Origin: Cognatishimia activa | GTDB taxonomy: Bacteria; Pseudomonadota; Alphaproteobacteria; Rhodobacterales; Rhodobacteraceae | Direction of reading: 5' to 3' | Length of the DNA: 44,869 bases | NCBI RefSeq assembly: GCF_001458335.1 | Contig: NZ_CYTO01000009.1 | Location: 618,306-663,174, forward strand | Notes under the pieces: model-generated | Database searches by the model: none | What the model was told of the DNA's origin: nothing | Seen by the model: the letters and a program-made list of their open reading frames with translations, nothing else | Shown: positions 19,069 through 34,431 of the stretch, in pieces | Layout: each line of letters starts with the position of its first letter | How positions within the stretch are numbered: the stretch's first letter is position 1 | Translations under genes and position numbers: made by a program

Positions 19069-19302
19069 ATGAGCGACGTCGCAGCACGCGTAAAAAAGAT
19101 CGTTGTAGAACACCTGGGTGTTGAAGAAGACAAAGTTGTCGAAAACGCATCCTTCATCGACGATCTGGGCGCAGACTCTCTGGACACTGTAGAGCTGGTT
19201 ATGGCTTTCGAAGAAGAGTTTGGTATCGAAATCCCTGACGACGCAGCAGAGACCATCCAGTCTTTCGGCGACGCAGTGAAATTCATCTCCGAAGCTGCTT
19301 AA
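19069..19302 (+). CDS. acpP: Acyl carrier protein
   Basis: A 77-residue acidic ACP. Ser37 in '[18 protein letters not shown]' receives the 4'-phosphopantetheine arm. It follows fabD-fabG as usual. GAGG lies eight bases before the ATG. The codon use is the strongly biased type of a highly expressed gene. From codon 31 onward (base 19159) through the terminator the sequence is repeated at 34288. In related genomes fabF follows directly; here fabF is 17.4 kb away. Confidence 0.98.
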
Positions 19303-19355
19303 GCTTCGTTTAGAGATAATTTTAGAAAAACCCTCGCTTCGGCGGGGGTTTTTTT
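19159..19355 (+). repeat. Direct repeat, left copy (acpP 3' half and terminator)
   Basis: Bases 19159-19302 match 34288-34431 at 135 of 144 positions by eye. The similarity continues past the stop (GCTTCGTTTAGAGAT vs GCTTCGTTAGAGAT) and, weaker, into the terminator (GAAAAACC...). Both copies point the same way, 15,129 bp apart. Confidence 0.9.
19326..19355 (+). terminator. Terminator of acpP
   Basis: AAAAACCCTCGC-TTCG-GCGGGGGTTTTTTT: stem with a C(TTCG)G tetraloop and a long T-run, 24 bases after the stop. Confidence 0.95.
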
Positions 19356-19667
19356 GTTGGGTGAGAGTTTGCAACGCGAAATCGTTGTCTGCTTTGCGGA
19401 CAAAACTGCCGTTCGCCGCACTCGCGAAAAACTTCCCAGATCCCTGGTTAAATCTGAAATGTGGCCGAATTTTTGGACATTCGCTGTGATCCATAAACGG
19501 GTCTATTTAGCCGTACGCCGAACATGCCCAATTTCGCCTCGACACTAAAATAGCAAACCTTATTAAGTATTAAAAATCACCCAAGCTCAATTAAGAATAG
19601 CCGCGGCACAAGGAGCGCCGCGGCTGGTTCCGCATTCGATTGGCTTTGCCACCAATCAGAATTCGAG
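19356..19667. other. Gene-free gap between acpP and the sox cluster
   Basis: Apart from the terminator hairpin at 19599-19625, this stretch shows no gene I can support. It has short semi-repetitive bits (GCTTTGCGGA, CCGTTCGCCGC) of a kind I recall from roseobacter intergenic debris. It would hold the left boundary of any inserted block. Confidence 0.45.
19599..19625 (-). terminator. Terminator of the sox operon
   Basis: Perfect nine-base arms AGCCGCGGC / GCCGCGGCT, 43 bases past the soxF stop on the minus strand, followed by an AT-rich tail. Confidence 0.75.
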
Positions 19668-20933
19668 TTAGCTGAACATGTCGTTGGTGATGCCTGTGTA
19701 CCAGCCTTCGGACTCTTCATAGGTGGCCTTGCGCACGTCTGAAGTTTCGCCAGTCGCGCTGATAAAGCCATCAACCTTGGCGATCTTCTCGTCAGTCGCC
19801 TCATATGTGGCACCCACCTTAACACCATCATTTGTGTCGATGAGCGACCAGCAGGTATTGGAGAACTTCGCTGGGAATACACGAGAGCCCGTCAACGCAC
19901 CGCGCACTGCATTTGCGCAGACCTTCGCCTGTGAGTTCGCTGAGAAGCCAGACTTTGGCATGTCGCCCTGTTGGGACGCGTCCCCAAGAACGTAGACATC
20001 AGGATCCGCTTTTGTGGACATATCCGCCGCATTCACGGGCGCCCAGTTGCCGTCGGTGACGCCAGCGATTTCAGCAATGCGACCAGCCTTCATTGCCGGA
20101 ATCACGTTGCAGACATCTGCTTTGGTAACCTCGCCATCGATAGTCACGGTCATGGCCCCTGGATCGACGGAAACGTTGCCACCACCGAAGTCTTCACCGA
20201 TCCAATCGATCATGCCTTCGTAGTGGTTCGCCCAACCCTCTTGGAAGAGAGCCATTTTGGAGAATTTAGGTTTCGGATCGGCCACGATGATTTTCGCGGT
20301 TGGGTTGTTGTTCTTCAGGTAGTGAGCAACCATCGAAACCCGCTCATAAGGCCCAGGAGGGCAACGATATGGGTTTGGTGGCGCAACCATCATAAATGTG
20401 CCGCCTTCTGGCATCGCCGCCAGCTGAGCTTTGAGCAATTCCGATTGAGAACCCGCTTTGTAGGCATGGGGCATCTTGTTTTGAGCGGTGATATCCCAAC
20501 CTTCAACAGCGCCATCAACAAAGTCGATGCCGGGGGATAGGATCAGTTTGTCGTAGTTCAGCGTTGCGCCACCCGCGAGTGTTACGGTCTTCGCAGCACG
20601 ATCAACGCCGGTTGCCCAGTCATGCACAACGTTCACGCCCCGTGCCGCGAGGCCGCCATAGGTATGGCCAATATCCGAAATGCTCTTGAAGCCACCCAAA
20701 TAAAGGTTGGAGAAGAAGCAAGTATAGTAGGTTCGCGTCGGTTCAACCAAGGTCACATCAACCTCGCCTTTGCTGTCCTTCGCAATGTAGCGCGCTGCGG
20801 TCGCACCACCAGCACCGCCGCCGATCACAACAACTCTTGGCTTACCGTGTCCGGCCGCTTGGACTGTTGGTGCCGCCAGCACCGACAAGCCTGCGGCTGA
20901 CGCTCCTAGGAAACTCCGTCTGTTCAATGCCAT
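19668..20933 (-). CDS. soxF: Flavocytochrome c sulfide dehydrogenase flavoprotein subunit
   Basis: A 421-residue periplasmic FAD protein that oxidises sulfide and passes electrons to its cytochrome partner. A Tat signal 'NRRSFLGASAAGLSVLAAP' opens it; the FAD motif VVIGGGAGGATAARYI starts near residue 35, followed by 'TYYTCFFSNLYLGG' and 'LSPGIDF'. The second redox cysteine is in 'FSNTCWSLID' of the C-terminal FCSD domain. The ATG at 20933 follows GGGAGGAG; the frame extends upstream without need. It is last in soxYZBCDEF, 22 bases after soxE. Confidence 0.93.
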   Translation of the reverse strand: MALNRRSFLGASAAGLSVLAAPTVQAAGHGKPRVVVIGGGAGGATAARYIAKDSKGEVDVTLVEPTRTYYTCFFSNLYLGGFKSISDIGHTYGGLAARGVNVVHDWATGVDRAAKTVTLAGGATLNYDKLILSPGIDFVDGAVEGWDITAQNKMPHAYKAGSQSELLKAQLAAMPEGGTFMMVAPPNPYRCPPGPYERVSMVAHYLKNNNPTAKIIVADPKPKFSKMALFQEGWANHYEGMIDWIGEDFGGGNVSVDPGAMTVTIDGEVTKADVCNVIPAMKAGRIAEIAGVTDGNWAPVNAADMSTKADPDVYVLGDASQQGDMPKSGFSANSQAKVCANAVRGALTGSRVFPAKFSNTCWSLIDTNDGVKVGATYEATDEKIAKVDGFISATGETSDVRKATYEESEGWYTGITNDMFS

Positions 20934-20955
20934 TGGTTTTCTCCTCCCGTTCGCA

Positions 20956-21291
20956 TTATTCTCCCAAGCTCTTGAAATAACTCGCAAGAGCCGCGATCTC
21001 ATCATCGGCCAGACGGCCGGTGATCATTTGCATCACCGGGTTTTCCCGGTGTTTTTCGCGATACGCATGCATCGCAATCACGAAATCTTCGGTCTCCCAC
21101 CCGATGATTCCGGGAATTCCATCATTGGCACCGGTCGCCTGATGGCAGGTGGTGCATTCGCTTGAAAGGTATTCGCCATATGCAAAATCCCCTTCGATTG
21201 CCAATATGTCCGGGGCGACCGTAAAGGCCGCCTCTATCGGCTGGACTTCTTCAGCCCGGGTTTCCGAGAAAGGTGGCCAGGTATGCAGCAA
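20956..21291 (-). CDS. soxE: c-type cytochrome, SoxE-like, without visible signal peptide
   Basis: Up to 111 residues with a single haem site CTTCH (about residues 46-50) and a Met ligand in 'NPVMQM', resembling the cytochrome subunit of flavocytochrome c and matching its place before soxF. The frame is closed upstream by a TAA at 21316-21318 and contains no ATG before the haem; the first usable start is TTG 21289-21291, with AAAGGAGG about 12 bases upstream, inside the end of soxD (41-base overlap). No hydrophobic export segment precedes the haem, although c-type cytochromes must be exported. Either the 5' end was lost or a frameshift separates it from its signal. Confidence 0.75.
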   Translation of the reverse strand: MLHTWPPFSETRAEEVQPIEAAFTVAPDILAIEGDFAYGEYLSSECTTCHQATGANDGIPGIIGWETEDFVIAMHAYREKHRENPVMQMITGRLADDEIAALASYFKSLGE

Positions 21292-22537
21292 CGGCTTCCT
21301 GGTCCTCCTTTCGTTTTAGGCCTGCGAAGGCCATTTTTGTGCCTTTCAGATATTTCTTAGGATTCTCCAAAAACGCTGCGAGTGTCTCTGCATCCCAAGT
21401 GCCCCCCGCCGCACCGGCTTCGGTAAGTGCATTGGAATACTTAAATCCATCGACGGACGCGATTTGACTGCCTAACACGTTGTTGAGCACTGGCCCTGTT
21501 TTGTGCTTCGCGCCTTCGCCTACCGCGTGGCAGGATTGGCACTTGCGAAATACTTTCTTACCAGCAGCGGCCAGTTCCGGATCAGGCGTTGCAACTGCCG
21601 CTGTTTTGATGACCGGAGCTTCCTGAACTGTCGTCGTAGAGGGCGTTTCTTGGGGCAGTTCGAGTGCCGCATCGTCCTCGCCTTCTTCTTCGGTCTCCGG
21701 CGTCACATCCAAAACAGAGGCGCGCATGGTAATGTCGACGCTGTCTTTGCAGTCAGACATACATGGCTCGTCACGCCAAATTGGATATTCCTCGGTGTCG
21801 CGGCCTTCCACGACGAAACCGTCGGCGTTGTGCATCTCAACGTCCATGAAATTTTCATGGCTTAGTTCGAAGTCATCATCGACCAAGTCGTTGGAATAGA
21901 GAATGTAGGCGACAATCGCGTAGACCTCATCATCGGTCAGCGTCTGCGCGCCACCGAATGGCATTGAACGATGCACATAGTCCCAAACGGTAGATAGATA
22001 GGGCCAGTAGGAGCCAACCGTTTTGACAGGGTCCTTATCTGCAAGCGTGTCAAATCCACCGGCCAGAACAGGCCAATTGTCTACACCCTCGGCAAAGTCA
22101 CCATGGCAGGCTGCACAATAGGTCGCAAAGACTTCTTCGCCGGTATAGACGTCACCCTTGCCCGGCGGAAGCCCACGACCATCAGGCAAAACATCGACAT
22201 CCCATGCTGCGATCTCTTCTTGGTGTGCTTCACGACCAAGACCAAGGCTCTCTACCAAACGAGGCGCTGGTTGGGTCAATGATCCGCCACTGGCGACCTG
22301 CAATGCAGCGGTTGCTCGCACATCTTCAATTTCGGCCTTCAAAGCATTCGCCGTGGCAACTTCTGTTGCCGCCTGCGCACGTGCATCGTCTGCCTGCACA
22401 AGCACCTGTTCGACCCGATCCTGCAACAGTTCAATTTCCGTATCACCGTGCTCTCTAGAGGACAAACCATAGGCAACCCCAAGCACGAGCGCGGTCCCGC
22501 CCAATGCCGGGACAAGAATATTAGGAGACTTCGACAT
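21251..22537 (-). CDS. soxD: SoxD diheme cytochrome c, sulfane dehydrogenase subunit
   Basis: A 428-residue protein with two haem sites, CAACH (about 143) and CQSCH (about 336), in two cytochrome c domains joined by an acidic Pro/Thr linker. It accepts electrons from SoxC when the sulfane sulfur on SoxYZ is oxidised. One N-terminal hydrophobic segment acts as signal or anchor, then a coiled-coil-like stretch (about 35-80). It overlaps the soxC stop by 17 bases, indicating translational coupling; GGGGAGG precedes its ATG. Confidence 0.95.
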   Translation of the reverse strand: MSKSPNILVPALGGTALVLGVAYGLSSREHGDTEIELLQDRVEQVLVQADDARAQAATEVATANALKAEIEDVRATAALQVASGGSLTQPAPRLVESLGLGREAHQEEIAAWDVDVLPDGRGLPPGKGDVYTGEEVFATYCAACHGDFAEGVDNWPVLAGGFDTLADKDPVKTVGSYWPYLSTVWDYVHRSMPFGGAQTLTDDEVYAIVAYILYSNDLVDDDFELSHENFMDVEMHNADGFVVEGRDTEEYPIWRDEPCMSDCKDSVDITMRASVLDVTPETEEEGEDDAALELPQETPSTTTVQEAPVIKTAAVATPDPELAAAGKKVFRKCQSCHAVGEGAKHKTGPVLNNVLGSQIASVDGFKYSNALTEAGAAGGTWDAETLAAFLENPKKYLKGTKMAFAGLKRKEDQEAVAAYLATFLGNPG

Positions 22538-23795
22538 TTTCTGCCTCCCCGTCTTTGTTTACAAACCAAGTCTGGATGCAGTTGTTGTGGTAAACGGAGT
22601 TTTCACCGCGAACTTCGCGCAATGCGTCTTTGGTCGGCTGCACGTATCCGGTCTCATCCATGGCACGGGCCTGTAGCAGCATCTCTTCGCCATCCCACTC
22701 CGTATCAAGATAGAAACGCGTCAGCGCTTTGCTGTCACCTTGTTTGCCAAGACGCGCCGTCTCCCAGTTCATGCCGCCATCTTTGGAGACATCCACACGG
22801 GTGATTTTGCCGTGCCCAGACCAGGCGAGACCTGAGATCACCAAAGGACCGGGACCATGGGGGATTGGCGACTGTGGGCTTGGCGACGTAATGACGGATT
22901 TCGCGTCCATGACCCAGGTCCATTTACGTGCCGTGCCATCTTCTAACACATCCGTGTATTTGGACGTCTCTTCGCGGCTTTCGACAGCCATATCAGTCAC
23001 TTCGATACGACGAAGCCATTTTACCCACATGTTTCCTTCCCAACCGGGGACAACCAAACGCACGGGGTAGCCATGTTCTTTGCGGAGTGCTTCTCCATTT
23101 GCTTTGAAGGCGACGATCACGTCGTCCAGTGCCTTTTCCATTGGAATAGAGCGCCCATTCGAGGACGCGTCTGCGCCTTCGACATACACCCATTTATCAG
23201 ACAGGTCGCCAGCGCGATCCAACCCTGCTTCTTTCAAGAGAAGCCGGAGCGGCACGCCCGTGTACTCCATGTTATGGATCATACCGTGAGTGAACTGGAC
23301 GCCGTTCAACTGTGCGCCAGCCCATTCCATGCCCGTGTTTGCCGCACATTCGCAGAAGTAGACGTGGTTTTCCCGCGGAAAGCGTTCAATATCTTCATAG
23401 GTGAAGACCAAAGGCGTATCAACCAACCCATTGATCATCAGGCGATAATCTTCTTTACGCAGCTCGATCGCACCCGAGTGGTGGCGCTCAAACGCACAGC
23501 CCTGGGGCGTGATCGTCCCGTCCAAAGCATGGATCGGCGTGAAGTTGATCGACGAGATTGGATCCGCCGTCAGCCAAGGCACGTTGCGACGGATCACGTC
23601 GCTTTCAAACTCTATTGGCAGCCCATAGGGCGTTTCATCCACTCCCTCACCTGTTATCGACGCCCAGTCCTGCAATTCTGTAATGAGCGGATCCGGTTGC
23701 GACGCAGCTGCTCCCCCAGCCGCGGTCGCACCGGCTAAGGCGACACTACCCCTTAGAAATGCTCGACGAGACGATGATAGATTTATGTCATCCAT
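22521..23795 (-). CDS. soxC: SoxC sulfane dehydrogenase, molybdopterin subunit
   Basis: A 424-residue periplasmic molybdenum enzyme of the sulfite-oxidase family. A Tat signal 'SSSRRAFLRGSVALAG' opens it. The Mo-ligand cysteine is in 'CECAANTGMEW'; 'GYPVRLVVPGWEGNMWVKWLRRIEV' (split) is the family core and a C-terminal dimerisation domain follows. ATG 23795 has GGGGAGGAG upstream; the frame runs 58 codons further up but overlaps soxB. With SoxD it oxidises the SoxY-bound sulfane sulfur, giving complete thiosulfate oxidation without sulfur globules. Confidence 0.95.
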   Translation of the reverse strand: MDDINLSSSRRAFLRGSVALAGATAAGGAAASQPDPLITELQDWASITGEGVDETPYGLPIEFESDVIRRNVPWLTADPISSINFTPIHALDGTITPQGCAFERHHSGAIELRKEDYRLMINGLVDTPLVFTYEDIERFPRENHVYFCECAANTGMEWAGAQLNGVQFTHGMIHNMEYTGVPLRLLLKEAGLDRAGDLSDKWVYVEGADASSNGRSIPMEKALDDVIVAFKANGEALRKEHGYPVRLVVPGWEGNMWVKWLRRIEVTDMAVESREETSKYTDVLEDGTARKWTWVMDAKSVITSPSPQSPIPHGPGPLVISGLAWSGHGKITRVDVSKDGGMNWETARLGKQGDSKALTRFYLDTEWDGEEMLLQARAMDETGYVQPTKDALREVRGENSVYHNNCIQTWFVNKDGEAENVEVS

Positions 23796-23814
23796 TGATG
23801 TCTCCTCCCCTTCG

Positions 23815-25512
23815 TTAAGCGCCGACAATGTCGACGTTGTTGTTCTCCGACACGGAAACCGTGCCGAGTTTTCGAATATGTGCTTCAACCACATCCCAAA
23901 TCTGAGGACCTTCGGTACCTTCGTTGACCGAGGCCCAACCAGCGACGGAATAGGACTTGGATGGATCAACTTTTTCGCCTGTCCGCAAAAGGGTCAGGTC
24001 CGAAATCCGCGCACCCTGCGGTTGGTTAATGTCGATCCGATAGCTAAGCCCACCGGTGCGCACCATGTCACCGCCCTGTTGATAATAAGGGTCCGGGTTG
24101 AAGATGTTGTCGGCCACATCTTCCAATACGGCCATCAGCGTTTCACCCGTCATTTCGGTACGATAGGCTTCGCCGTAGGTCATAGAGGTCACGTTCCAGA
24201 TGTCTTCACGCGTAATATCTTGACCCGGAATAAGCGATGGCCCCCATCGGACGCCTGGGCTTAGGGCAATCTCGGCCTCTCGCTCGGACAGAAGCGCATC
24301 ACAGATCAGGTCATCCCAGGACCCGTTGAAATTGCCACGGCGATAAAGCGTACCGTCGGTTTGACCGATCACTTCACGCATTGCTACTTCATGGGGCGCG
24401 CGTTCCGCCTCGATCACTGCCGCGACTTCTGGGTCTGGTGCAATCACATCAGAGAAAATCGGGATAAGCTTGTGACGATACCCCATCATACGGCCATCGC
24501 GCACATCCAGATCAACGCGTGATACGAATTTCCCGTTGGACCCGGAGGCAACAACGATCGTCTGACCGACAACAACCGGCTCTGGCAGTGCGTCATGGGT
24601 GTGTCCAGACAGGATCACATCGATGCCGCTGACCACCGAAGCCATCTTTTTGTCGACGTCAAAACCGTTATGGCTGAGGACAACCACACAATCCGCGCCG
24701 GCGGCGCGCACTTCGTCGACCATGGCCTGCATGTTCTCATCTCGAATACCGAAAGAAAACTCCGGGAACATCCAACCGGGGTTGGCAATCGGCATGTATG
24801 GGAACGCCTGGCCGATGACAGCGATTTTGCTGCCGCCACGTTCAAAGAACTTATAGGGCGGGAAGAGTTCTGCTGGCTCATCCCATTCCGCGTCAAAGAT
24901 GTTCTGGCCTAGGGCTGCGAAAGGAAGGCCTTCGACGATCTCGTTTACGCGCTCGGATCCAAGCGTGAACTCCCAATGGAAGGTCATTGCATCTGGCTTG
25001 AGTGCGTTCATCACGTTGACCATATCTTGGCCTTGCGTGTGATAGCATGTGTAAGACCCGTGCCAAGTGTCGCCACCGTCCAGCAAAATGGCATCGGGGC
25101 GGTCAGCTCGGATCGCGTTAATGGCGGTTGCAATACGATCCAAGCCTCCGACACGCCCGTAACCTTTTGCCAACGCGGCAAAATCACCAGAACTCAACGC
25201 ATAATGGCTCGGGCCACCATCAGCGATACCGTATAATTTGCGGAAATTGCCGCCGGTCAGATGAGGCACCGCACCTTTGTTGCTTCCAACACCGATGTTT
25301 ACGGAGGGCTCGCGGAAATAGATCGGTTTCAGCTGCGCATGAATATCCGTCACATGGATCAAGGAAACGTTTCCGAAGGTTTCGAACTGAAACAGGTCGT
25401 CTTGGGTTAGGCTTTGTTGAGCGGCCAACCGCGCCCAATTGCCAAAACCAGAAGCCCCGAGCATCGCGGATGCAGCCATTCCGACTTGAAGAAAGTCACG
25501 ACGGGAGATCAT
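23815..25512 (-). CDS. soxB: SoxB thiosulfohydrolase
   Basis: A 565-residue dimanganese enzyme of the 5'-nucleotidase family that releases sulfate from SoxY-cysteine-S-thiosulfonate. Tat signal 'ISRRDFLQVGMAASAML'; metal-binding motifs 'HVTDIHAQL', 'DGGDTWHGS', 'SHNGFDVD' and 'SGHTHDALPEP' are all present. It lies 85 bases after soxZ; soxA, normally between them, is missing. The ATG at 25512 lacks a good Shine-Dalgarno, unlike its operon mates. Confidence 0.97.
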   Translation of the reverse strand: MISRRDFLQVGMAASAMLGASGFGNWARLAAQQSLTQDDLFQFETFGNVSLIHVTDIHAQLKPIYFREPSVNIGVGSNKGAVPHLTGGNFRKLYGIADGGPSHYALSSGDFAALAKGYGRVGGLDRIATAINAIRADRPDAILLDGGDTWHGSYTCYHTQGQDMVNVMNALKPDAMTFHWEFTLGSERVNEIVEGLPFAALGQNIFDAEWDEPAELFPPYKFFERGGSKIAVIGQAFPYMPIANPGWMFPEFSFGIRDENMQAMVDEVRAAGADCVVVLSHNGFDVDKKMASVVSGIDVILSGHTHDALPEPVVVGQTIVVASGSNGKFVSRVDLDVRDGRMMGYRHKLIPIFSDVIAPDPEVAAVIEAERAPHEVAMREVIGQTDGTLYRRGNFNGSWDDLICDALLSEREAEIALSPGVRWGPSLIPGQDITREDIWNVTSMTYGEAYRTEMTGETLMAVLEDVADNIFNPDPYYQQGGDMVRTGGLSYRIDINQPQGARISDLTLLRTGEKVDPSKSYSVAGWASVNEGTEGPQIWDVVEAHIRKLGTVSVSENNNVDIVGA

Positions 25513-25597: not shown

Positions 25598-25927
25598 TTA
25601 GGCGATGGCGATTTTCTTCTTCGCTTCGTACACAGACCCATCGTCGTCGTACCAAGTGAACTGGAACTCTCCAGCTTCGGGCACAACCGCTTCGAACTCG
25701 AAATATGGATTTGTGGAGATCGACGTTTCGAGCGCCACATCAATAATGTTCTGACCATTAAAGTCAGCTGTGAAACGATTGATAATGGATCGTGGGATCA
25801 ACGCACCGTCGTCGCCGTGACGCTGCCCGCTTTCCATCTTGTGGCTGATTAGCGTCTTAACGGTGACTGTATCGCCAGCAGCCGCTGTCTTCGGCACTTT
25901 CACGCGGGGTTTTACACCTTTTGCCAT
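25598..25927 (-). CDS. soxZ: SoxZ sulfur-carrier complex subunit
   Basis: A 109-residue immunoglobulin-like protein that pairs with SoxY. 'RVKVPKTAAAGDTVTVKTLISHKMESGQR' (split), 'INRFTADFNG' and 'FTWYDDDGSVYEAKKKI' are diagnostic. No signal peptide: it is exported with SoxY through Tat. Starts 18 bases after soxY; GGAG present. Confidence 0.96.
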   Translation of the reverse strand: MAKGVKPRVKVPKTAAAGDTVTVKTLISHKMESGQRHGDDGALIPRSIINRFTADFNGQNIIDVALETSISTNPYFEFEAVVPEAGEFQFTWYDDDGSVYEAKKKIAIA

Positions 25928-25945
25928 GGGTAGCTCCTTCGTATG

Positions 25946-26368
25946 TTAGCCGCCGCAGCCGCCGATTGTGACTTTGACATTGGCTTCAGCGCGCTGGAAT
26001 GATCCGTCTTCCATTTGCGCAATGGCGATAACATTCTGCGTCGTCGCCAATCGGATGCGCGTGGAGGCAAAGCGTGACCCGCTCAGCGGACCGAACGTGA
26101 ACGCACCGACCTTTGGCGTCGGGTTCCCGTCTGCAAAAATTGCAACGGCCACTGCACCTGGTGCATCAAACTCTATTGGAACCGAATTTCCGTTCTCAGC
26201 GATTTCTGGTGCCGAGATTGATAGATCGCCTGCGCCTGGCGCCGTTCCACCTGTGAATTCAGAAATTGCATCTTCTGCAAGGCTCGCAAAAGCAGGCACG
26301 GCTGGCAGACCAGCGAAGGCGATTGCCCCACCGCTGATCGCGAGAACCTGTCGTCTTGAGAATGTCAT
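25946..26368 (-). CDS. soxY: SoxY covalent sulfur carrier
   Basis: A 140-residue Tat-exported protein (signal 'FSRRQVLAISGGAIAFAGLP') ending in the swinging arm GGCGG, whose cysteine carries the sulfur intermediates of the Sox pathway. ATG 26368 has GGAGAAGCGG upstream; the frame extends 13 codons further without support. First gene of soxYZBCDEF here, preceded by a 313-base regulatory gap with an ATTC-N8-GAAT palindrome instead of soxW and soxX. Confidence 0.95.
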   Translation of the reverse strand: MTFSRRQVLAISGGAIAFAGLPAVPAFASLAEDAISEFTGGTAPGAGDLSISAPEIAENGNSVPIEFDAPGAVAVAIFADGNPTPKVGAFTFGPLSGSRFASTRIRLATTQNVIAIAQMEDGSFQRAEANVKVTIGGCGG

Positions 26369-26681
26369 CCGCTTCTCCAGTATCGTGCCAAAGGCACGTG
26401 ATTCCAATTAGGTGCAGGATACGGATGCGCAGACTGAGTCCAGTCTCGCTGCTTGTGCGCGATAGCCTAAATGGCTTCGCCTCCTCCCCTGCGGGTGTAA
26501 ACCCTTGCCTGTACACTAAGGCACACCAACGAAATTTCGCAACAACAAATTCATTATTTTGAATTTATTAATATGTTGCGCCTGCACAATGATTTTCCAA
26601 TCACAGCTTTAATTATTGGGTCTTCCAAACGCTGCGGTGCAGAAAGTCACGTGACCGGCGATACGAAAGGATACCTCAATC
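26369..26681 (-). other. soxV-soxY gap where soxW and soxX are expected
   Basis: No reading frame with a CxxCH haem site or thioredoxin motif is found on either strand in these 313 bases. It is AT-rich in the middle (26540-26620) and carries the candidate SoxR operator at 26547-26566, so it now looks like the promoter region of soxYZBCDEF. Confidence 0.7.
26547..26566. promoter_or_regulatory. Candidate SoxR/SqrR operator upstream of soxY
   Basis: AAATTC-ATTATTTT-GAATTT is a perfect six-base-arm inverted repeat with an eight-base spacer. It contains ATTC-N8-GAAT, the consensus reported for the persulfide-responsive ArsR repressor SqrR of Rhodobacter capsulatus. It lies 179 bases upstream of the soxY start. 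Confidence 0.65.
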
Positions 26682-27419
26682 TCATCCTATTTTTCCGAAC
26701 TCGGGAACCTGCGCTAGGATCCAATAAGCAAAAATTGAGATGGAATCAGAGGCGATCAGCAGCGCGAAAACGATCAGCAACACACCCATCACACGCTCAA
26801 TATGAGCGAGTTTAGATCGGAACCGCCCAATCCAATTCAGAAACGGGACGATAAAGGCCGCAGCGAAAATAAAAGGCAATGTCATTCCCAAACCGTAGGA
26901 GATCAGTAGAGAAGCCCCTTCAAAAACCTGCTCTTGCCCTGCCGCCATAAACAAAATCGCCGCCAAAATTGGCCCAACACAAGGCGTCCATCCAAAGGCA
27001 AAGGCAAGACCAAGCATAAAGGCTCCCATTAAGGTGCTGCCGTTTGAGGTTGAAACGCTCACGCCAGTCTGCTTCAGCAAGAAGTTCAATTTGAACACCC
27101 CGAGAAACTGCAGCCCCATTGCAAGTACGATCGCTGCAGCTAGCCAGCGCAGCACATCAAAATAGTCGCGTAGCGCTTGCCCTAGGGTCGTCGAGACCAA
27201 GCCCAGCAACACAAAAACGGTAATCATACCCATTGAAAACACGATGGACGTCAGGATCATATGCCATCGCACACGGCTGGGTATTGAACCTTGCTCCGCC
27301 ATTTGGTGCACGCTTCTTCCCGCCAAGTAGGTCAGGTAGAAAGGCACTATTGGCAATATGCAGGGGGAAACGAAAGACAACAACCCGGCGCCAAATGCGG
27401 CAAACAACCCGATATCCAT
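26682..27419 (-). CDS. soxV: CcdA-type thiol-disulfide membrane transporter (SoxV)
   Basis: A 245-residue protein with six hydrophobic helices. The two redox cysteines are in 'SPCILP' and 'TPCVGP', the CcdA/DsbD hallmark. It carries reducing power across the membrane to periplasmic partners, in Paracoccus to SoxW, which keeps SoxY active. soxW is absent here, so SoxS or another thioredoxin may take the electrons. It is divergent from soxS, 74 bases apart, with a shared operator. Confidence 0.92.
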   Translation of the reverse strand: MDIGLFAAFGAGLLSFVSPCILPIVPFYLTYLAGRSVHQMAEQGSIPSRVRWHMILTSIVFSMGMITVFVLLGLVSTTLGQALRDYFDVLRWLAAAIVLAMGLQFLGVFKLNFLLKQTGVSVSTSNGSTLMGAFMLGLAFAFGWTPCVGPILAAILFMAAGQEQVFEGASLLISYGLGMTLPFIFAAAFIVPFLNWIGRFRSKLAHIERVMGVLLIVFALLIASDSISIFAYWILAQVPEFGKIG

Positions 27420-27493: not shown

Positions 27494-27877
27494 ATGTTGC
27501 GAAGCTTCGTTTTGTCAGCGGCTATGACTGTCGCATTTTTTTCGCTCGCTAAGGCAGAGACCGTTCTTTTGATGGCCGAAGAACGTGGCTGCTATTGGTG
27601 TGCGAGGTGGACCGAAGAGATCGGACCCATCTATCCAAAGACAGCCGTTGGCAAAACCGCTCCGCTCATTCGCTACAATCGCCGGGATGAAACACCGGAT
27701 GTCTTACTTACAAATTCCGTGCGCTTTACCCCGACCTTCATTTTGGCCCATGATGGGCAGGAAGTTGGACGCATTGAAGGCTATCCCGGCGAAGATTTTT
27801 TCTGGGCTCTCCTTAAATCGCTGTTCACAGACGCGAATATCGCAATAGACGAAACTGGAAAGACAAATGACAGCTGA
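27494..27877 (+). CDS. soxS: SoxS periplasmic thioredoxin-like protein
   Basis: A 127-residue exported thioredoxin-fold protein. Signal 'MLRSFVLSAAMTVAFFSLAKA' is followed by the redox motif CYWC (about residues 33-36) and the cis-Pro segment 'VRFTPTFIL'. In Paracoccus SoxS reactivates SoxY by cleaving wrong disulfides/persulfides. Its stop overlaps the soxR start by 11 bases. Confidence 0.92.
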   Translation: MLRSFVLSAAMTVAFFSLAKAETVLLMAEERGCYWCARWTEEIGPIYPKTAVGKTAPLIRYNRRDETPDVLLTNSVRFTPTFILAHDGQEVGRIEGYPGEDFFWALLKSLFTDANIAIDETGKTNDS

Positions 27878-28238
27878 AGCCGCGCAACCTTCTCAAACCA
27901 CATCGCGTTTGCCGGTCTTTGACAAGAATATGTGCCATGAAGACATGGAACGTATGATGACAAATGCAGAAACCGCATCGAATTTTCTTAAGGCGATAAG
28001 CCATGAAGGTAGATTGATGATCTTGTGCCATTTGGCGACAGGCGAAAAATCGGTGACAGAACTCGAAGAACTGTTGTCAGCGCGGCAATCCGCGGTCTCT
28101 CAACAGCTAACACGGTTGCGACTTGAGGGGCTCGTTTCGCCACGTCGGGAAGGTAAGGCAATCTATTATCGCCTAAAAGATGACAGACCAAAGAAAATCA
28201 TGGAAGTTGTTTACGAGATGTTTTGCTCGGCGGAGTAG
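27867..28238 (+). CDS. soxR: SoxR/SqrR-type ArsR-family repressor
   Basis: A 123-residue winged-helix repressor. 'AISHEGRLMILCHLA', the recognition helix 'SARQSAVSQQLTRLR' and the wing 'RREGKAIYYRL' are typical. Cys54 and Cys120 fall at the positions of the SqrR pair that forms a tetrasulfide bridge with persulfides; Cys23 is extra. It probably represses the sox genes until sulfane sulfur is present, through the ATTC-N8-GAAT palindromes at 26547 and 27442. Translationally coupled with soxS and followed 47 bases later by yedE. Confidence 0.93.
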   Translation: MTAEAAQPSQTTSRLPVFDKNMCHEDMERMMTNAETASNFLKAISHEGRLMILCHLATGEKSVTELEELLSARQSAVSQQLTRLRLEGLVSPRREGKAIYYRLKDDRPKKIMEVVYEMFCSAE

Positions 28239-28285
28239 AAGAGTAAACGACTTTGTTGCACAGCCGTATCGGGGAGGAGACGGAC

Positions 28286-29341
28286 GTGTTGGAAACGATT
28301 GGCGAAGCAAATTTTGCTGCAATTATTGGGCTTTTTGGCGGCTTGATCCTTGGGCTGGCCGCACGCGTTGGGCGGTTTTGCACCCTTGGGGCCATCGAAG
28401 ACTTCCAATACGGGCACGACAGTCGCCGTCTCAGAATGTGGGGGCTGGCTATCGGTATTGCGGTGATCGGCAGCCACATTGCACTGCAATTTGAAACATT
28501 TACGGCAGCAGATACCGCCTACCTGGATCGAGTTTGGAACCCGATTGCGACAATCATCGGTGGGTTGATGTTTGGCTATGGGATGGCCCTTTCTGGTAAC
28601 TGCGGCTACGGCGCTCTGGCCCGCCTTGGCGGCGGCGATTTGCGATCTTTCGTCGTTGTCATAGTCATGGGATTGTCTGCATACTTCGTTATGTCAGGCC
28701 CTTTGGCTCATGCGCGAGTCGCCATTTTTCCAGTCATAACCGGAACAGATGCGCCGCAAGGTATAAGCCAATGGATGGAAGCACAGCTTGGCATTTCAAT
28801 GCTTGCCGGTGGTCTGCTCATTGGCGGCTTGATCACAACGGTTAGCCTTGCAAATAGACGCTTTATCGACTCTCCCAAGCAAGTTATTTGGGGCGCGTTG
28901 GTCGGGATTGCGATTGTTACGGGTTGGATCGGGACGGGGTACGTTGCGACAAATGGGTTTGGCCTTGAGCCAGTCGAGACCCATTCATTTGCAGCACCGA
29001 TAGGCGACACGATTTTTTATGGTATGACCGCATCAGGAAACACACTTTCATTTTCAGTGGGCTCGGTCATCGGCGTTCTTGCTGGTGCTGCATTGGGCTC
29101 ATACTCAAAAGGACATTTCCGCTGGGAGGCTTGCGAAGACCCACGCGAGCTGCGCCGCCAGATTTTTGGGGCAGCCTTAATGGGCCCAGGCGCAATCTTG
29201 GCGGTAGGTTGCAGCGTCGGGCAGGGAATTTCAGCCTTTTCCATCCTCGCCTTCAGCGCCCCGGTTGCTTTGGTCGCGATTTTTGTCGGCGCAACGATCG
29301 GCTTACGGCAATTGATATCAGGGTTTGCGGCGGCTGAGTGA
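28286..29341 (+). CDS. YeeE/YedE family sulfur-compound transporter
   Basis: A 351-residue protein with about nine to ten membrane helices. The conserved cysteines lie in 'GRFCTLGA', 'GNCGYGALARLGGGD' and 'AVGCSVGQGISAFS', as in the thiosulfate channel YeeE, where they relay thiosulfate by S-H-S hydrogen bonds. The frame opens with TTG at 28253, but GTG 28286 has GGGGAGGAG six bases upstream, so it is the better start. It follows soxS-soxR and likely imports or exports thiosulfate or another sulfur anion of the pathway. Confidence 0.9.
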   Translation: MLETIGEANFAAIIGLFGGLILGLAARVGRFCTLGAIEDFQYGHDSRRLRMWGLAIGIAVIGSHIALQFETFTAADTAYLDRVWNPIATIIGGLMFGYGMALSGNCGYGALARLGGGDLRSFVVVIVMGLSAYFVMSGPLAHARVAIFPVITGTDAPQGISQWMEAQLGISMLAGGLLIGGLITTVSLANRRFIDSPKQVIWGALVGIAIVTGWIGTGYVATNGFGLEPVETHSFAAPIGDTIFYGMTASGNTLSFSVGSVIGVLAGAALGSYSKGHFRWEACEDPRELRRQIFGAALMGPGAILAVGCSVGQGISAFSILAFSAPVALVAIFVGATIGLRQLISGFAAAE

Positions 29342-29583
29342 TCTAATCAATTTTTTTATGCCTATTGGAAATGAGTGGCCGCCTTTAAAACGATGCCTCG
29401 CTTCTAGTGTCTGCTGCAGCTTGAAGCCGTCAGGAGATGATTTCAAAGCAAAGGACCGCTCTTGGTCGACTGTCCAACGCACCAATTTTTTGCGTGAGCA
29501 GCATGTTGCTTGTGCAGCATTACTCACTCTGGGCTCATAACTGTCATTCGCCGCACCGCAAAACAAAAAAGTAGACAAGTACA
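29342..29583. other. Gap after yedE, no supported gene
   Basis: Short open frames exist on both strands (for example 29325-29540 plus, 29318-29584 minus), but they mirror each other and I recognise neither. It could be decayed coding sequence. Confidence 0.4.
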
Positions 29584-29612
29584 AAAAAGGCCACCCAACC
29601 GGGTGGCCTTTC
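29584..29612. terminator. Bidirectional terminator between yedE and the binding-protein gene
   Basis: AAAGGCCACCC-AACC-GGGTGGCCTTT: 11-pair stem with A-run and T-run flanks, in a convergent gap. Confidence 0.9.
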
Positions 29613-29634
29613 TCATTGTAAATTCAGCTCAAAC

Positions 29635-30414
29635 TCACTCAGACGCCAACCCCCATTTCGCACCCAAGCTGTCAAAGAAGCCTTGTTCCTTCTTCAGGCC
29701 AATCCAGGTGTTCACATAGTTGATCCAAACCTGATCCGCCTGCGGCAGCAGCATCGCCACTGGGGTCGGGGAGCGGCCTTCTTCAACCGGCACGATCATC
29801 AGGTTGTCGTATTTCTCAACCAAAGTCGCCGCTTCGATGTTAGAGGTGATGTTGGCATCCGCGCGGCCAGACAGCACTTCTTGAAAGTCGCGCGCGGGGG
29901 CTTCGACAATGCGGTGCTGTGCATCTGGGAAATAGGCTTTCACTTGCGCTTCTTGGGTGGTGCCCAAGGTCGCGGCCACAGAGACATCCGCCTTGTTCAG
30001 ATCATCCCAACCGGTGAAACGGTCGGCGTTCTTCTTCAAGGTCAGTGGCACGGTCACCAAAGCGAAGTAGCTGTCAGAATAGCCCGCCACTTTGGCGCGG
30101 GAGGCTGACACAGATGCGGAACCGGTCATGTCGTACTGGCCAGAGGTCACGCCGGACACCAGAGTTTTCCAATCGGTTGGGACAAATTCAATCTCAACGC
30201 CCAGATCTTTGGCCAGCTCGGTCATGACGTCGATGTCATAGCCTTTGTACGTGTTGGTGGCGACGTCGCGCATGGTCATTGGGTTCCAGTCGCCGGTTGT
30301 GCCGACTTTCAGAACCCCTGCGGATAGGATTTCATTCAGTGCTGACTGCGCCGATGCTTGTAGTGCACTTGTGGCCAATACCGCCGCGGCGGCTGCAACT
30401 TTAAGAAATTTCAT
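29635..30414 (-). CDS. ABC transporter substrate-binding protein, polar amino acid type
   Basis: A 259-residue periplasmic protein with signal 'MKFLKVAAAAAVLATSALQASA' and a type II bilobal fold of the family 3 solute-binding proteins ('LKVGTTGDWNPMTMRD', 'YKGYDIDVMTELAKDLGVEIEFV' split, 'GQYDMTGSASVSASRA', 'ARDFQEVLSGRADA'). The sequence also resembles cyclohexadienyl dehydratase (PheC), which shares the fold. The divergent ATPase and permease genes argue for transport. ATG 30414 has AAGGAAAA upstream. The ligand is unknown. Confidence 0.85.
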   Translation of the reverse strand: MKFLKVAAAAAVLATSALQASAQSALNEILSAGVLKVGTTGDWNPMTMRDVATNTYKGYDIDVMTELAKDLGVEIEFVPTDWKTLVSGVTSGQYDMTGSASVSASRAKVAGYSDSYFALVTVPLTLKKNADRFTGWDDLNKADVSVAATLGTTQEAQVKAYFPDAQHRIVEAPARDFQEVLSGRADANITSNIEAATLVEKYDNLMIVPVEEGRSPTPVAMLLPQADQVWINYVNTWIGLKKEQGFFDSLGAKWGLASE

Positions 30415-30539
30415 GGATTTTCCTTCCAACACATCTACTTGATGAAACTGGAACTAGGGTTGCATGGTGAATAGTAAATGCAAACAGTCTAAAAACACGC
30501 AAAACCGCAAAAAAACATCACATTTTGACGAGCAGGCCC

Positions 30540-31295
30540 ATGACCACATCCCAGACTGAGACCAAGCCCATCATTTCGATGGAAAATGTGTCCAAACACT
30601 TTGGGGATTTTCAGGCTTTAAAGAACGTCAATCTGGACGTGGCTCTGGGGGAGCGGGTGGTGGTGTGTGGTCCATCTGGGTCGGGGAAGTCGACGCTGAT
30701 CCGCTGCATAAACCGGCTCGAGCGTCATGATGCTGGGCGCATTACTGTGGACGGCACAGAGCTGACCAATGATGCGGCCATGGAAAAGGTGCGCGGTTCC
30801 GTGGGCATGGTCTTTCAGCAGTTCAATCTGTTCCCGCATTTGACCATCCTAGAAAACCTCTGTTTGGGGCCGCGTCGGGTGCTGGGGCTCTCCCCTAAGG
30901 ACGCACGGGACAGGGCGTTGACCTACTTGGAACGGGTGCAGATCCGGGACCAAGCGGACAAATACCCGCGGCAACTGTCTGGTGGGCAACAGCAGCGGGT
31001 GGCGATTGCGCGCTCACTTTGCATGGAGCCGCGGATTTTGCTGTTTGATGAACCAACGTCCGCGCTTGACCCCGAAATGATTGCTGAGGTGCTGGAGGTC
31101 ATGACGGAACTTGCCGGCAGCGGCATGACGATGATTGTGGTGACCCACGAAATGGGCTTTGCGCGCCGGGTGGCGGATCGGATGGTCTTTATGGATCAGG
31201 GGGAGATCGTTGAAGTCGGCCCCGCGGAAGAGGTGTTTTCTGCGCCGAAATCCAAGCGCTTTGCGCAGTTCATCAATCAAATCTTGAACCACTGA
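30540..31295 (+). CDS. ABC transporter ATP-binding protein, amino acid type
   Basis: A 251-residue ATPase. Walker [11 protein letters not shown]-loop '[12 protein letters not shown]', signature LSGGQQQR, Walker B '[14 protein letters not shown]' and switch His in 'THEMGFAR' match the GlnQ/HisP/EhuA type. ATG 30540 is chosen; an earlier TTG at 30525 adds only five residues. The permease gene starts ten bases after its stop. Confidence 0.94.
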
Positions 31296-31305
31296 GGATA
31301 GAGCC

Positions 31306-32043
31306 ATGAAAAACCTTCTCATCCTCGGTACCTCTCTGTTTTTGCTTAGCGGCTGTTCGGGCAATTGGGGCTGGTACGTGGTGGACCCAACCACGCCATC
31401 AGGATTCAATAACCTCAAATTCATGGCCAGCGGGGCGATTTATACGATCCAGATGTCGCTGACGGCCATAGCGATTTCGGTTGTCGTCGGCCTGCTGGTG
31501 GCCTTGCCGGGCTTGTCAGAGAAACGCGGCTGGCGGGTTTTTAACCGCACCTATGTCGAAATCGTGCGCGCCGTACCGGTATTGGTGCTGATCCTCTGGG
31601 TTTATTACGGACTGCCTGCCATCACAGGGATCACCCTTGGCGTCTTTTGGGCTGGCGTTTTTGCCTTAGCGTTAAGCGACAGCGCCTTTCAGGCAGAGAT
31701 TTTCCGCGCGGGCATCCAGTCCATTGGACGCGGCCAATACGAGGCGGCGCAATCCATTTCTCTGAATTACCGCGACACCATGCGCTATGTGATCTTGCCG
31801 CAAGCGATCCGGCGCATATTGCCAGCCTTGGGCAATCAGTTTGTCTATATGCTGAAGATGTCTTCGCTCGTGTCCGTCATTGGCATGCAGGAGCTCACGC
31901 GGAAAGCCAACGAGTTGGTGGTGGCAGAATATCGACCGCTCGAAATCTATACGATCCTCGTCCTAGAATATTTGGTTCTCATCCTCATCGTCTCTGCGGG
32001 GGTTCGGTGGTTGGAACGGCGGTTGATGGGGGACGAGGTCTGA
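31306..32043 (+). CDS. ABC transporter permease, amino acid type, with N-terminal lipobox
   Basis: A 245-residue permease of the HisMQ family with about five membrane helices and the EAA loop 'EAAQSISLNYRDTMRYVILPQAIRRILPAL' (split here). Its N-terminus 'MKNLLILGTSLFLLSGCSGNWGWYV' (split) reads as a lipoprotein signal with lipobox LLSGC, unusual for a polytopic permease. ATG 31306 follows GAGGATAGAG. Only one permease gene is present, so it probably forms a homodimer. Confidence 0.92.
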   Translation: MKNLLILGTSLFLLSGCSGNWGWYVVDPTTPSGFNNLKFMASGAIYTIQMSLTAIAISVVVGLLVALPGLSEKRGWRVFNRTYVEIVRAVPVLVLILWVYYGLPAITGITLGVFWAGVFALALSDSAFQAEIFRAGIQSIGRGQYEAAQSISLNYRDTMRYVILPQAIRRILPALGNQFVYMLKMSSLVSVIGMQELTRKANELVVAEYRPLEIYTILVLEYLVLILIVSAGVRWLERRLMGDEV

Positions 32044-32149
32044 TCAAACTCCGCTTGATCAACGTTATATCATAACATATTTTCAGCGCCGACGAGGTGC
32101 ATAATGATGCGAAGTTTCGCGCCGTTTGCGCAGTTAAGGAAAGCTTTTT

Positions 32150-33253
32150 ATGACAGACTCCAAAGCCAATGACATCAGGGTGCCTGTGACGATTCTCACA
32201 GGGTTTCTGGGTGCCGGCAAAACCACGCTTCTGAACGCGATTTTAAACGATGCGTCCAACGGGCGCGCAGCCGTGATTGTAAACGAGTTCGGTGAAGAAG
32301 GGCTAGATCACGATCTGATCGAGGAATCCGGGGACGAAATCACCCTGATGCAATCGGGCTGCCTGTGCTGCTCGGTCCGGGGTGATCTGTCAAAAACCAT
32401 CATGCTGTTGCTTTCACGGCGGGCCTACAAGCAATTGGAGTTTGAGCGGATTGTGATTGAGACCACGGGTCTGGCTGATCCCGGCCCGATATTGCAAACG
32501 CTGCTGGTGGATCGACACCTTGCAAAGACCACGAAGATGGATGGCGTGGTGACTGTTGCGGATGCGGTCAATGGGCCAGCAACTCTGGATGCGCAGTTTG
32601 AGGCGGTGTCTCAGGCAGCAACGGCGGATTTGATTGTGGTGAGCAAAACCGATCTGGTGTCCCCCTCTGAAGTCACCGCATTTGAAGATCGCCTAAGCCG
32701 TCTGAACCCAGCAGCCCAGATTGTCCATTCTGTGAAAGGGCAGGGGATCTCGGATAAAATCTATGGGTTAAGTGCTCTGACGCCGGATGCCAAGACGTCG
32801 GATGTCTTGGCGTGGACCAGCGATGCGAAGGCTACGGCGTCTGCACCTTTAGGCGCGACACAGCCAGCCAAAGCCGATCCTTTGGCCAACCTATCGGGCT
32901 TTGCCTCTACGAAATCGACACCGGTGGCCAGCTCCATGCATGACGACCGGATCGGATCCGCGTCAATTGTGTTGGATGACCCGATCCCGGACGTGGTGTT
33001 TGACCGGTGGCTGGATACGTTGATTTCTTTGCGGGGCCCTGACGTGCTGCGCATCAAGGGGATTGTGTTCCTTGAAAGCGTCGACCTGCCATTCGTGTTC
33101 CACGGCGTCCAACACGTTTTTGATCCACCCGTACAGCTTAAGGAATGGTCCAAAGAGGACCGCCGTTCGCGCATTGTGGTGATTGCCCGCGATTTAAGCC
33201 AGCCAGAGATACAAGCGAGCCTTGAGATGCTCAAAATGCGCGAAAAAGCTTAA
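32150..33253 (+). CDS. CobW/COG0523 family metal-chaperone GTPase
   Basis: A 367-residue G3E GTPase. Walker A 'GFLGAGKTT', metal motif 'GCLCCS' (CxCC, about residues 70-75), 'ETTGLADPGPI' and the base-specificity motif 'SKTDL' are present; a CobW C-terminal domain occupies about 265-360 after a low-complexity Ala/Thr/Asp linker (about 220-255). The family loads zinc, cobalt or other metals into target enzymes; no cobalamin or zinc-uptake genes flank it, so the metal is unknown. Confidence 0.92.
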   Translation: MTDSKANDIRVPVTILTGFLGAGKTTLLNAILNDASNGRAAVIVNEFGEEGLDHDLIEESGDEITLMQSGCLCCSVRGDLSKTIMLLLSRRAYKQLEFERIVIETTGLADPGPILQTLLVDRHLAKTTKMDGVVTVADAVNGPATLDAQFEAVSQAATADLIVVSKTDLVSPSEVTAFEDRLSRLNPAAQIVHSVKGQGISDKIYGLSALTPDAKTSDVLAWTSDAKATASAPLGATQPAKADPLANLSGFASTKSTPVASSMHDDRIGSASIVLDDPIPDVVFDRWLDTLISLRGPDVLRIKGIVFLESVDLPFVFHGVQHVFDPPVQLKEWSKEDRRSRIVVIARDLSQPEIQASLEMLKMREKA

Positions 33254-33263
33254 ACAACGATAT

Positions 33264-33298
33264 GCAGCCTCTACCTTTATCGGTGGAGGCTGTTTCCT
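33264..33298 (+). terminator. Terminator of the cobW-type gene
   Basis: CAGCCTCTACC and GGTGGAGGCTG pair (one mismatch) around a short loop and are followed by TTTCCTT, just after the stop. Confidence 0.7.
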
Positions 33299-33442
33299 TC
33301 CAGAAGCGATTATTTTGGCCCAAGTCGGTTTTGTGCCCAAACCCGCCGATTTGGGATCAGGAGAAAGCCGGGTTACTGTAGAAGCTTGTCCCAAAGGGCG
33401 TGTGTGCCCGATCGCGGGACGCGATGAGCTTTGGAGGAAGGC

Positions 33443-34186
33443 ATGATTGTATATCCCACATTGGAATTGCAGAACGGCAAATGCGTGACGCTGGAGCGTG
33501 GACGCCTTGAGGAACCAGCAATCTGGCATGTGGACCCGGTGGAGACGGCGCAGGGTTTTGCTGCGGATGGGGCCGAATGGGTGCATGTGACTGACTTGGA
33601 TGCCGTCGCCGGTGAAGGCGACAATGACGCCTTGATCGAAGAGATGATCCGCACAGTGCCTGCCTCCGTGCAGATCGGCGGCGGCATGCGGTCCCGCGAA
33701 CGCATTGAGCATTGGATCGACAAAGGCGCAGGCCGTGTGGTGGTGGGCACTCTGGCAGTGCAAGACCCAAGCACGGTGCAGGAACTGGCCATGCGCTACC
33801 CGGATCAGATCGTGCTGGCGGTGGACATTTTCCAAGGCAAGCTGATGACCGAAGGCTGGCGCAATCCCGGCGCGATGGTGCCCGAGGATTTTGTGCGCGC
33901 TTATGATGACGCGCCGCTCGCTGGGGTGATCGTGACGGATATCGATGCCGACATCGGCGATCAGGACGGCCAGCTTGGGGTAATCTCGGGTCTGTCTGCA
34001 GCCACGCGCCACCCGGTGATTGCACGGGGCACTGTGCACGTGGCCGATGACGTGTCGCGCCTGAAATACGTGGCCAATATCAGCGGCACAATGGTGGGGC
34101 GGTCGCTTTTTGCCAAGGATTTGGATTTGAAAGAGGCCTTAGAGCTGGCGCAGGAAGCACCGGAGCCGAAGGCTCAGTTTGTTTAA
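33443..34186 (+). CDS. HisA-like TIM-barrel protein, divergent paralogue
   Basis: A 247-residue (beta/alpha)8 barrel related to the histidine-pathway isomerase HisA: 'VQIGGGMRSRERIEHWIDKGAGRVVVGT' (split), 'LAVDIFQGKLMTEGW' and a C-terminal 'MVGRSLFAKDLDLKEAL'. The first catalytic Asp (position 8 in HisA) is Glu8 here, while the second (Asp128) is kept, and the usual ASGG phosphate loop reads ARGT. No other his gene is nearby. It is therefore probably not the housekeeping HisA. ATG 33443 follows GGAGGAAGG; a TTG 12 bases upstream is in frame. Confidence 0.8.
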   Translation: MIVYPTLELQNGKCVTLERGRLEEPAIWHVDPVETAQGFAADGAEWVHVTDLDAVAGEGDNDALIEEMIRTVPASVQIGGGMRSRERIEHWIDKGAGRVVVGTLAVQDPSTVQELAMRYPDQIVLAVDIFQGKLMTEGWRNPGAMVPEDFVRAYDDAPLAGVIVTDIDADIGDQDGQLGVISGLSAATRHPVIARGTVHVADDVSRLKYVANISGTMVGRSLFAKDLDLKEALELAQEAPEPKAQFV

Positions 34187-34198
34187 GGAACGGGTTTA

Positions 34199-34223
34199 GG
34201 AGCGCGTTTTCCCGTGGCGCTCC
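34199..34223 (+). other. Hairpin after the HisA-like gene
   Basis: GGAGCGC / GCGCTCC, a perfect seven-base stem with an 11-base loop, 13 bases past the stop and upstream of the stronger terminator. Confidence 0.5.
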
Positions 34224-34252
34224 AGCGACTTTGATGCGACCCGGATCCTAGA

Positions 34253-34287
34253 AACCGCGCTCCTGAGAAGGGGCGCGGTTGTTTTTT
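34253..34287 (+). terminator. Terminator of the HisA-like gene; ends at the acpP-repeat junction
   Basis: AACCGCGCTCC / GGGGCGCGGTT form an 11-pair stem (one T-G) around TGAGAA and end in GTTTTTT. The base after the T-run (34288) is the first base of the acpP repeat. Confidence 0.92.
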
Positions 34288-34431
34288 GACGATCTGGGCG
34301 CAGACTCTCTGGACACCGTAGTGCTGGTTATGGCTTTCGAAGAAGAGTTCGGCATCGAAATCCCTGACGACGCAGCAGAGACCATCCAGTCTTTCGGCGA
34401 CGCATTGAAATTCATTTCCGGAGCTTCTTAG
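34288..34431 (+). pseudogene. acpP: acpP 3' fragment (codons 31-77), second copy
   Basis: The frame reads [11 protein letters not shown]... to a TAG at 34429-34431 and matches codons 31-77 plus stop of acpP. By eye nine of 144 bases differ, four of them amino-acid changes (Glu41 to Val, Val to Leu, Glu to Gly, Ala to Ser); changing the helix-II Glu next to the pantetheine serine and the ratio of changes suggest loss of constraint. There is no start codon or first helix. Similarity continues weakly through about 34485 over the decayed terminator. It lies directly after a terminator, so it is a remnant and not an expressed ACP. Confidence 0.93.

Follow-up and report, generated by a model that had tools for sequence, protein, structure and literature searches.

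A duplicated acpP 3' end in Cognatishimia activa suggests a probable stacking of cassettes between acpP and fabF by one-sided homology

The window analysed here is a stretch of 44,869 nt from Cognatishimia activa (contig NZ_CYTO01000009.1, positions 618,306 to 663,174; genome G000 below), in which 16 genes lie between the essential fatty-acid genes acpP and fabF, together with a second copy of the acpP 3' end. The left core flank is fabG (18099-18836, plus strand; an open reading frame (ORF) in synteny with relatives), followed on the plus strand by an intact acpP (19069-19302), whose last 144 nt are the left copy of a direct repeat, and by the acpP terminator hairpin with its T-run (19323-19356, plus strand; fold z -5.9, a strong fold absent from the pattern-scan list). 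A sox module begins on the minus strand with a flavocytochrome c sulfide dehydrogenase flavoprotein (SoxF/FccB-like; 19668-21005; Pfam FCSD_central, 1e-47) and continues on that strand with a SoxD-like cytochrome c (21251-22537; Pfam Cytochrom_C, named from its position beside soxC), the sulfite dehydrogenase gene soxC (22521-23837, start codon provisional; NCBIfam TIGR04555, 587 bits against a cut-off of 420), soxB (23815-25512; Pfam 5_nucleotid_C and Metallophos, 87% to the SoxB of congener G001, named from its position in the cluster), soxZ (25598-25927; Pfam SoxZ), soxY (25946-26407; Pfam SoxY) and a CcdA/DsbD-TM-like protein in the soxV position (26682-27419; Pfam DsbD_TM). On the plus strand follow a small protein in the soxS position (27494-27877), thioredoxin-like by eye, which has no match in Pfam or NCBIfam and a counterpart at 53% in the sox locus of G001; an ArsR-type regulator in the soxR position (27867-28238; NCBIfam HTH_metalloreg, above the cut-off); and, ending the module, a YeeE/YedE-type sulfur transport protein (28253-29341; Pfam Sulf_transp) that is present in the G001 sox locus too.

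Beyond the sox module lie an amino-acid-type ABC transporter module (29635-32043, mixed strands; Pfam), composed of a binding protein (29635-30432, minus), an ATPase (30525-31295, plus) and a permease (31306-32043, plus), then a CobW-family GTPase (32150-33253, plus; Pfam cobW) and a HisA-like gene, hereafter hisA2 (33431-34186, plus; Pfam His_biosynth). The hisA2 terminator hairpin and its T-run (34253-34287, plus) end at the junction with the right-hand acpP fragment, or scar, denoted acpP' (34288-34439, plus). Behind it are a minus-strand AAA/OLD-like ATPase gene (34528-36540; 670 residues from the likely ATG at 36540; Pfam AAA_15 and AAA_21) and, as right core flank, fabF (36733-37989, plus; assigned by synteny) and mltG (YceG-like; 37994-39145, plus; named by synteny). 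The fabF-proximal segment from -61 to +7 (36672-36739, plus) is the same part of the gene that forms a scar in G003, the closest relative and one of eight congeners compared. The gene content named for the block in a preliminary description of this DNA (sox, ABC transporter, CobW and HisA-like genes between the two acpP copies) agrees with the Pfam and NCBIfam matches; a correction concerns fabF, which starts at 36733, with the AAA ATPase gene intervening between it and the right copy.

Codons 31-78 of acpP (19159-19302) are duplicated in direct orientation at 34288-34431 with 135 of 144 positions identical and no gaps. The nine differences counted by eye in the preliminary description hold in this alignment, whose score of 272 compares with at most 28 in 30 dinucleotide shuffles; extended by a repeat finder, the two copies reach 152 nt at 94% identity, with a spacing of 15,129. 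Further claims about the copies stand as well: the left gene is intact, and acpP', which comprises codon 31 to the stop plus 8 nt and lacks the acpP start, begins immediately 3' of the T-run of the hisA2 terminator hairpin (34253-34280; fold z -4.7) and carries four residue changes (E42V, V70L, E75G and A77S), along with a stop altered from TAA to TAG and synonymous differences at codons 40, 51, 52 and 73. Identity just upstream of the junction at 34288 is only 4/10, which indicates a non-homologous join. At the site of acpP' corresponding to the left terminator, no terminator-like fold above chance was found (z -1.0), and no further acpP remnant was found inside the block (best other score 22, reverse strand 24).

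Set against the eight congeners, codons 40, 51 and 52 and the first base of codon 77 are unusual in the left copy only, whereas in the right copy only this holds for codons 42, 70, 73 and 75 and for the stop. Because codons 42 and 70, changed in acpP', are conserved in 80/80 and 77/80 relatives, respectively, the fragment looks unconstrained and decaying. The two copies are about equally distant from G003 (5 and 6 differences) and look like close kin. Codons 1-30 of acpP (19069-19158) are nearest to G007 (2 differences, against 6 to G003), and the 3' half is nearest to G003; the few sites involved are compatible with a possible crossover inside acpP between these two parts. The idea that acpP is commonly duplicated was rejected: among 394 genomes only G000 and G089 have a second match at 1e-12, and that of G089 is a full-length acyl carrier protein (ACP) gene, 57%, on another contig.

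The loci of acpP were examined in 100 relatives (20 of the 39 nearest and 80 family members, the latter from the top of the acpP hit list, which biases the sample to close acpP), with ten shorter loci. No fabF is in reach in 13/100, and 4/100 gaps are too short for the acpP test described below. In the other 87 loci with fabF in reach the gap spans 140-7,958 nt (median 1,075), being shorter than 400 nt in 29 and at least 600 nt in 57; the preliminary description foresaw relatives in which a lone acpP lies near fabF, and such loci do exist (gap <400 nt in 24/69). Gap contents vary (a HigBA-like pair, GNAT, arginase family, PilZ, HisA-like, SDR and others) between conserved flanks, the pattern of a core-gene-flanked hotspot. 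Of the first 80 loci read in relatives, 23 contain a HisA-like gene, and hisA2 adjoins fabF, with no acpP fragment, in G001, G003 and G006. Half of the arrangement named beforehand as evidence against gene-end integration, block genes between acpP and fabF with no second acpP fragment, is therefore found in these three congeners; the sox genes are not there. Among the 16 genes between acpP and fabF in the window no site-specific recombinase was found, all having other assignments or no match, in agreement with the earlier remark that no integrase is seen inside the block. In 118 of the 120 gap ORFs of relatives, no integrase is among the best 25/70 and 25/30 families listed, beyond which a lone weak match is possible. 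In L139 (G266) fabF-like and mltG-like ORFs are inverted about 3-5 kb behind acpP. In L132 (G338) acpP is followed by terminase and portal genes, with fabF not within 19 kb.

Stranded gene ends are not confined to the window. When the acpP gene and its tail were aligned to each gap on both strands, the reverse strand giving a background of at most 31, acpP scars rose above background only in G007 (88) and G004 (74) besides the window (272). Each follows a HigBA-like cassette and starts at codon 66, the match over 44 nt being exact in G007; in G004, 165 nt separate the stop of the scar from fabF, the distance expected of an empty gap, and in G007 a 293-residue ORF lies between scar and fabF. 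The two scars probably share one event. A mirror search, in which the fabF 5' end was aligned to the gaps, revealed in G003 a scar of fabF bases -61 to +7 between an SDR gene and hisA2 (1890-1958 nt after acpP), scoring 91, where the next score is 37 and none of 100 mononucleotide shuffles exceeds 31. Because this scar scores higher against the fabF fronts of G004 (116) and G007 (111) than against that of G003 itself (91; window 87), the present fabF front of G003 may be a newcomer. Join points differ among the scars: codon 31 in the window, codon 66 in G004 and G007, and +7 of fabF in G003. Scars thus occur in 3/8 congeners and 0/98 tested other-genus loci (Fisher p 0.0003), a value that overstates the case because the eight congeners are related and G004 and G007 probably reflect one event; the fabF side was testable in 6/8 congeners and 66/98 other-genus loci. 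Two weak acpP candidates were dropped, one in G001 (27 against a shuffle maximum of 26; 21 nt long) and one in G013 (29 against 26, reverse strand 27; 17 nt long), both lying off the acpP end, and a fabF score of 37 in locus L292 was discounted as gapped and placed at -124 to -84.

The modules of the block also occur apart. A close SoxB is present in one of the eight congeners, G001, at a different locus, where neither the transporter nor a HisA-like gene was found in the 19.9 kb fetched; the transporter trio recurs in 13 fetched regions of permease relatives with no matches to sox, cobW or the HisA-like gene; and hisA2 is present in numerous gaps that lack the other modules. A single mobile 15-kb block is disfavoured because its sox, transporter and hisA2 modules are each found separately in relatives; the 15.1-kb block is probably not one element. 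The locus is best read as two tandem cassettes, acpP-[sox, transporter, cobW, hisA2] and [acpP']-[AAA]-fabF.

Taken with the structure of the locus, the decay of acpP', the variability of the spot and the parallel scars in three congeners, this arrangement suggests that the acpP-fabF gap is an integrase-free cassette spot whose contents are exchanged, in either direction, by homologous anchoring on one side in the flanking essential genes; we give this reading a probability of about 0.64. Under it, acpP' would be the stranded 3' end of the resident acpP. Incoming DNA carrying acpP and a cassette, with or without fabG, would recombine homologously in fabG or in acpP 5' of codon 31, and its other end would join illegitimately into the resident acpP at codon 31, so that the incoming copy would rebuild the whole of acpP and leave the resident 3' end behind the new cassette. 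In G003 the same process would have run in mirror image, anchored at fabF. The common rule would be a homologous border in a flanking essential gene and, on the gap side of the crossover, an illegitimate join within that gene. Joins that fall outside the gene would leave no recognisable stump, so that scars would undercount events. Non-homologous joins are visible in the window and in G003; the homologous border would need a donor to place it. Repeats of 44 nt and 68 nt are short for a RecA crossover within them, so that the crossover probably lay outside the repeat. Three join points in two genes, together with the lack of an integrase in the genes searched, favour homologous anchoring plus an illegitimate join. 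This comes close to the earlier proposal of homologous recombination with acpP-bearing DNA.

The flanks add possible signals of recombination, which rest on short sequences. hisA2 is 77% to that of G003, whereas mltG is 93% and fabF 96%, which fits exchanged gap contents. The 130 nt before fabF resemble G004 (75%) and G007 (74%) more than G005 and G008 (69% each) or G003 (68%), contradicting the kinship of fabF and mltG; this suggests a join of two allele types but gives no order of arrival. Within the one-sided mechanism the sox half is slightly favoured as the newcomer, on the grounds that hisA2 has diverged from G003 far more than mltG has and that the G004 stump stands beside an almost empty fabF side. 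The reverse direction is a minority case within the same mechanism, in which hisA2 would be native and a donor piece acpP'-AAA-fabF would have arrived anchored at fabF; it would match the position of hisA2 beside fabF in G003, G001 and G006, the sisterhood of the window and G003 hisA2 genes and the low GC content (46%) of the AAA gene, but the excess of hisA2 over mltG divergence and the old acpP end kept by G004 next to a nearly empty fabF side speak against it.

Several observations weigh against the proposed reading. The T at position 141 is common to both copies and is found in 0/8 congeners and 4/80 wider relatives, which implies that the donor was very close or the event internal. The hisA2 tree still joins G003 and the window as sisters (support 0.94), a placement that also fits a native hisA2 and hence the opposite direction to the one favoured. 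Neither presumed parent, acpP-sox...hisA2-fabF or acpP-AAA-fabF on its own, was found among the relatives. No scar was found in the 98 loci outside the genus, where a general mechanism predicts some unless old scars decay. A Campbell route is possible for this genome given the 152 nt of repeat, and the phage head genes directly behind acpP on the viral contig L231 fit an attachment site.

The last two points belong to rival explanations. The preliminary description likened the locus to the gene-end integration of one 15-kb element, and a mobile element that used the acpP 3' end as its attachment site, with its integrase lost or supplied from elsewhere, would account for the intact gene on the left, the displaced 3' end on the right, the direct repeat of the gene's 3' end at both borders and the recurrence of the pattern with other cargo in G004 and G007. 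On the 7-kb contig L231, phage head genes lie right behind a host-like fabD-fabG-acpP, and acpP has been reported on predicted Rhodobacteraceae prophages (PMC8224337). An attachment site is nevertheless hard to reconcile with a duplicated piece whose start differs (codon 31 in the window, codon 66 in G004 and G007), with the mirror scar of fabF in G003, with the lack of an integrase among the genes and families listed, with block modules that occur apart and with the absence of an acpP repeat on L231 (scores 24 and 22); site-specific integration is accordingly unlikely, and for a single 15-kb element it finds no support.

A Campbell-type single crossover between acpP and a circle, either a plasmid or excised DNA, carrying a truncated acpP end and the block would yield exactly the observed structure, for which 152 nt at 94% are sufficient to consider. 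It is as improbable as gene-end integration: the 44-nt and 68-nt scars of relatives are hard to explain in this way, crossovers inside such stumps being unlikely, and no plasmid record spans the block, the seven that match covering at most 2% of the query each (megablast only). Less probable still is a tandem duplication of acpP-fabF in a merodiploid, one copy bearing another cassette, followed by a deletion that fused the hisA2 terminator to codon 31. Transformation is reported to make tandem duplications in Streptococcus pneumoniae (PMC3784515), and the nearly equal distance of the two copies from G003 would suit such an origin, but two steps are required and no other acpP remnant was found in the block. 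One-sided anchoring with an illegitimate join remains the preferred account.

Viral contigs were scanned at 49 loci, six of which were inspected, with phage genes assigned by PHROGs; among 45 phage records scanned, none fell in the band above 80% identity. In L227, L228 and L254 host fab genes are succeeded, past fabF or mltG, by genes for terminase, portal or head proteins, an arrangement that resembles a gene transfer agent cluster next to host genes; L229 has host fab genes only, and L230 an ACP gene without fab genes. L231 joins fabD-fabG-acpP to phage head genes on the other strand and has no fabF, and is a prophage border or an assembly chimera. PMC8224337 places acpP on eight predicted prophages, three of them also with fabF and fabG; its listing there as a prophage auxiliary gene may reflect the host neighbourhood.

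The AAA ATPase gene, for which searches were made with 34528-36504, has a GC content of 46% against 54% for the block and for the remaining window. It also matches many defence ATPase models, more weakly and with NCBIfam scores far under the cut-off; a role in defence is a guess. Its distribution is patchy: relatives at 74-75% occur in three genome_contigs records, and a match at 1e-150 in 1/393 other family genomes. Neither acpP nor fabF was found in the examined flanks of 20 related AAA ATPase loci in genome_contigs. In the sox cluster, 85 nt between soxZ and soxB leave no space for soxA, and only 274 nt separate soxY from the CcdA gene; the same intervals in the G001 sox locus measure 947 and 1,192 nt between matches. 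SoxA (TIGR04484) was not found in this genome, G001 serving as positive control (1e-66), and by a hand comparison of lists 12/226 SoxB-positive family genomes (1e-150) have no SoxA match (1e-15).

Numerous hotspots in bacteria contain no mobile elements, and the case for exchange via the core genes beside them is largely statistical. Essential-gene ends left stranded on either flank would be physical traces of individual events, their join points visible; they make the mechanism testable by strain comparison and supply a search rule, namely to screen hotspots for short, decaying copies of the core-gene ends that flank them. More tentatively, and rather doubtfully, the acpP-fabF spot of the genus may be an open-ended cassette array without a dedicated enzyme, each arrival rebuilding one of two essential genes. 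If so, the cell would survive the illegitimate join because the arriving cassette rebuilds the essential gene, and the stranded gene end would serve both as a record of the event and as homology through which the next exchange, or the excision of an entire cassette, could proceed. In a partial library of literature on acpP as an island or integration site or with a duplicated end, no paper was recognised as describing this duplication.

Islands that integrate into the ends of tRNA or protein genes restore the gene and leave its old 3' end as a direct repeat; the present locus differs in that no integrase was found, there is no fixed join point and two genes are targets. The minimal mobile elements of Neisseria resemble the acpP-fabF spot in placing alternative cassettes between the same conserved genes, and stacking with core-gene scars is not known to be part of that picture. 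Hotspots flanked by core genes and free of mobile elements were described in 2017 (PMC5635113), and the likeness lies in variable genes between two conserved core genes with no need of a mobile element; in that description double crossovers are inferred statistically, whereas here core-gene fragments remain and cassettes are stacked, not swapped. Reports of homology-facilitated illegitimate recombination cover three competent species as well as Escherichia coli conjugation (PMC3240628), and the process has been proposed for the type VI secretion system (T6SS) immunity gene arrays of Vibrio cholerae (PMC5361080). In those arrays, a module anchored by homology on one side displaces the old end and repeated insertions build the array, much as proposed here; there, immunity genes and effector 3' ends are displaced, whereas between acpP and fabF it is the ends of essential fatty-acid genes, on both flanks.

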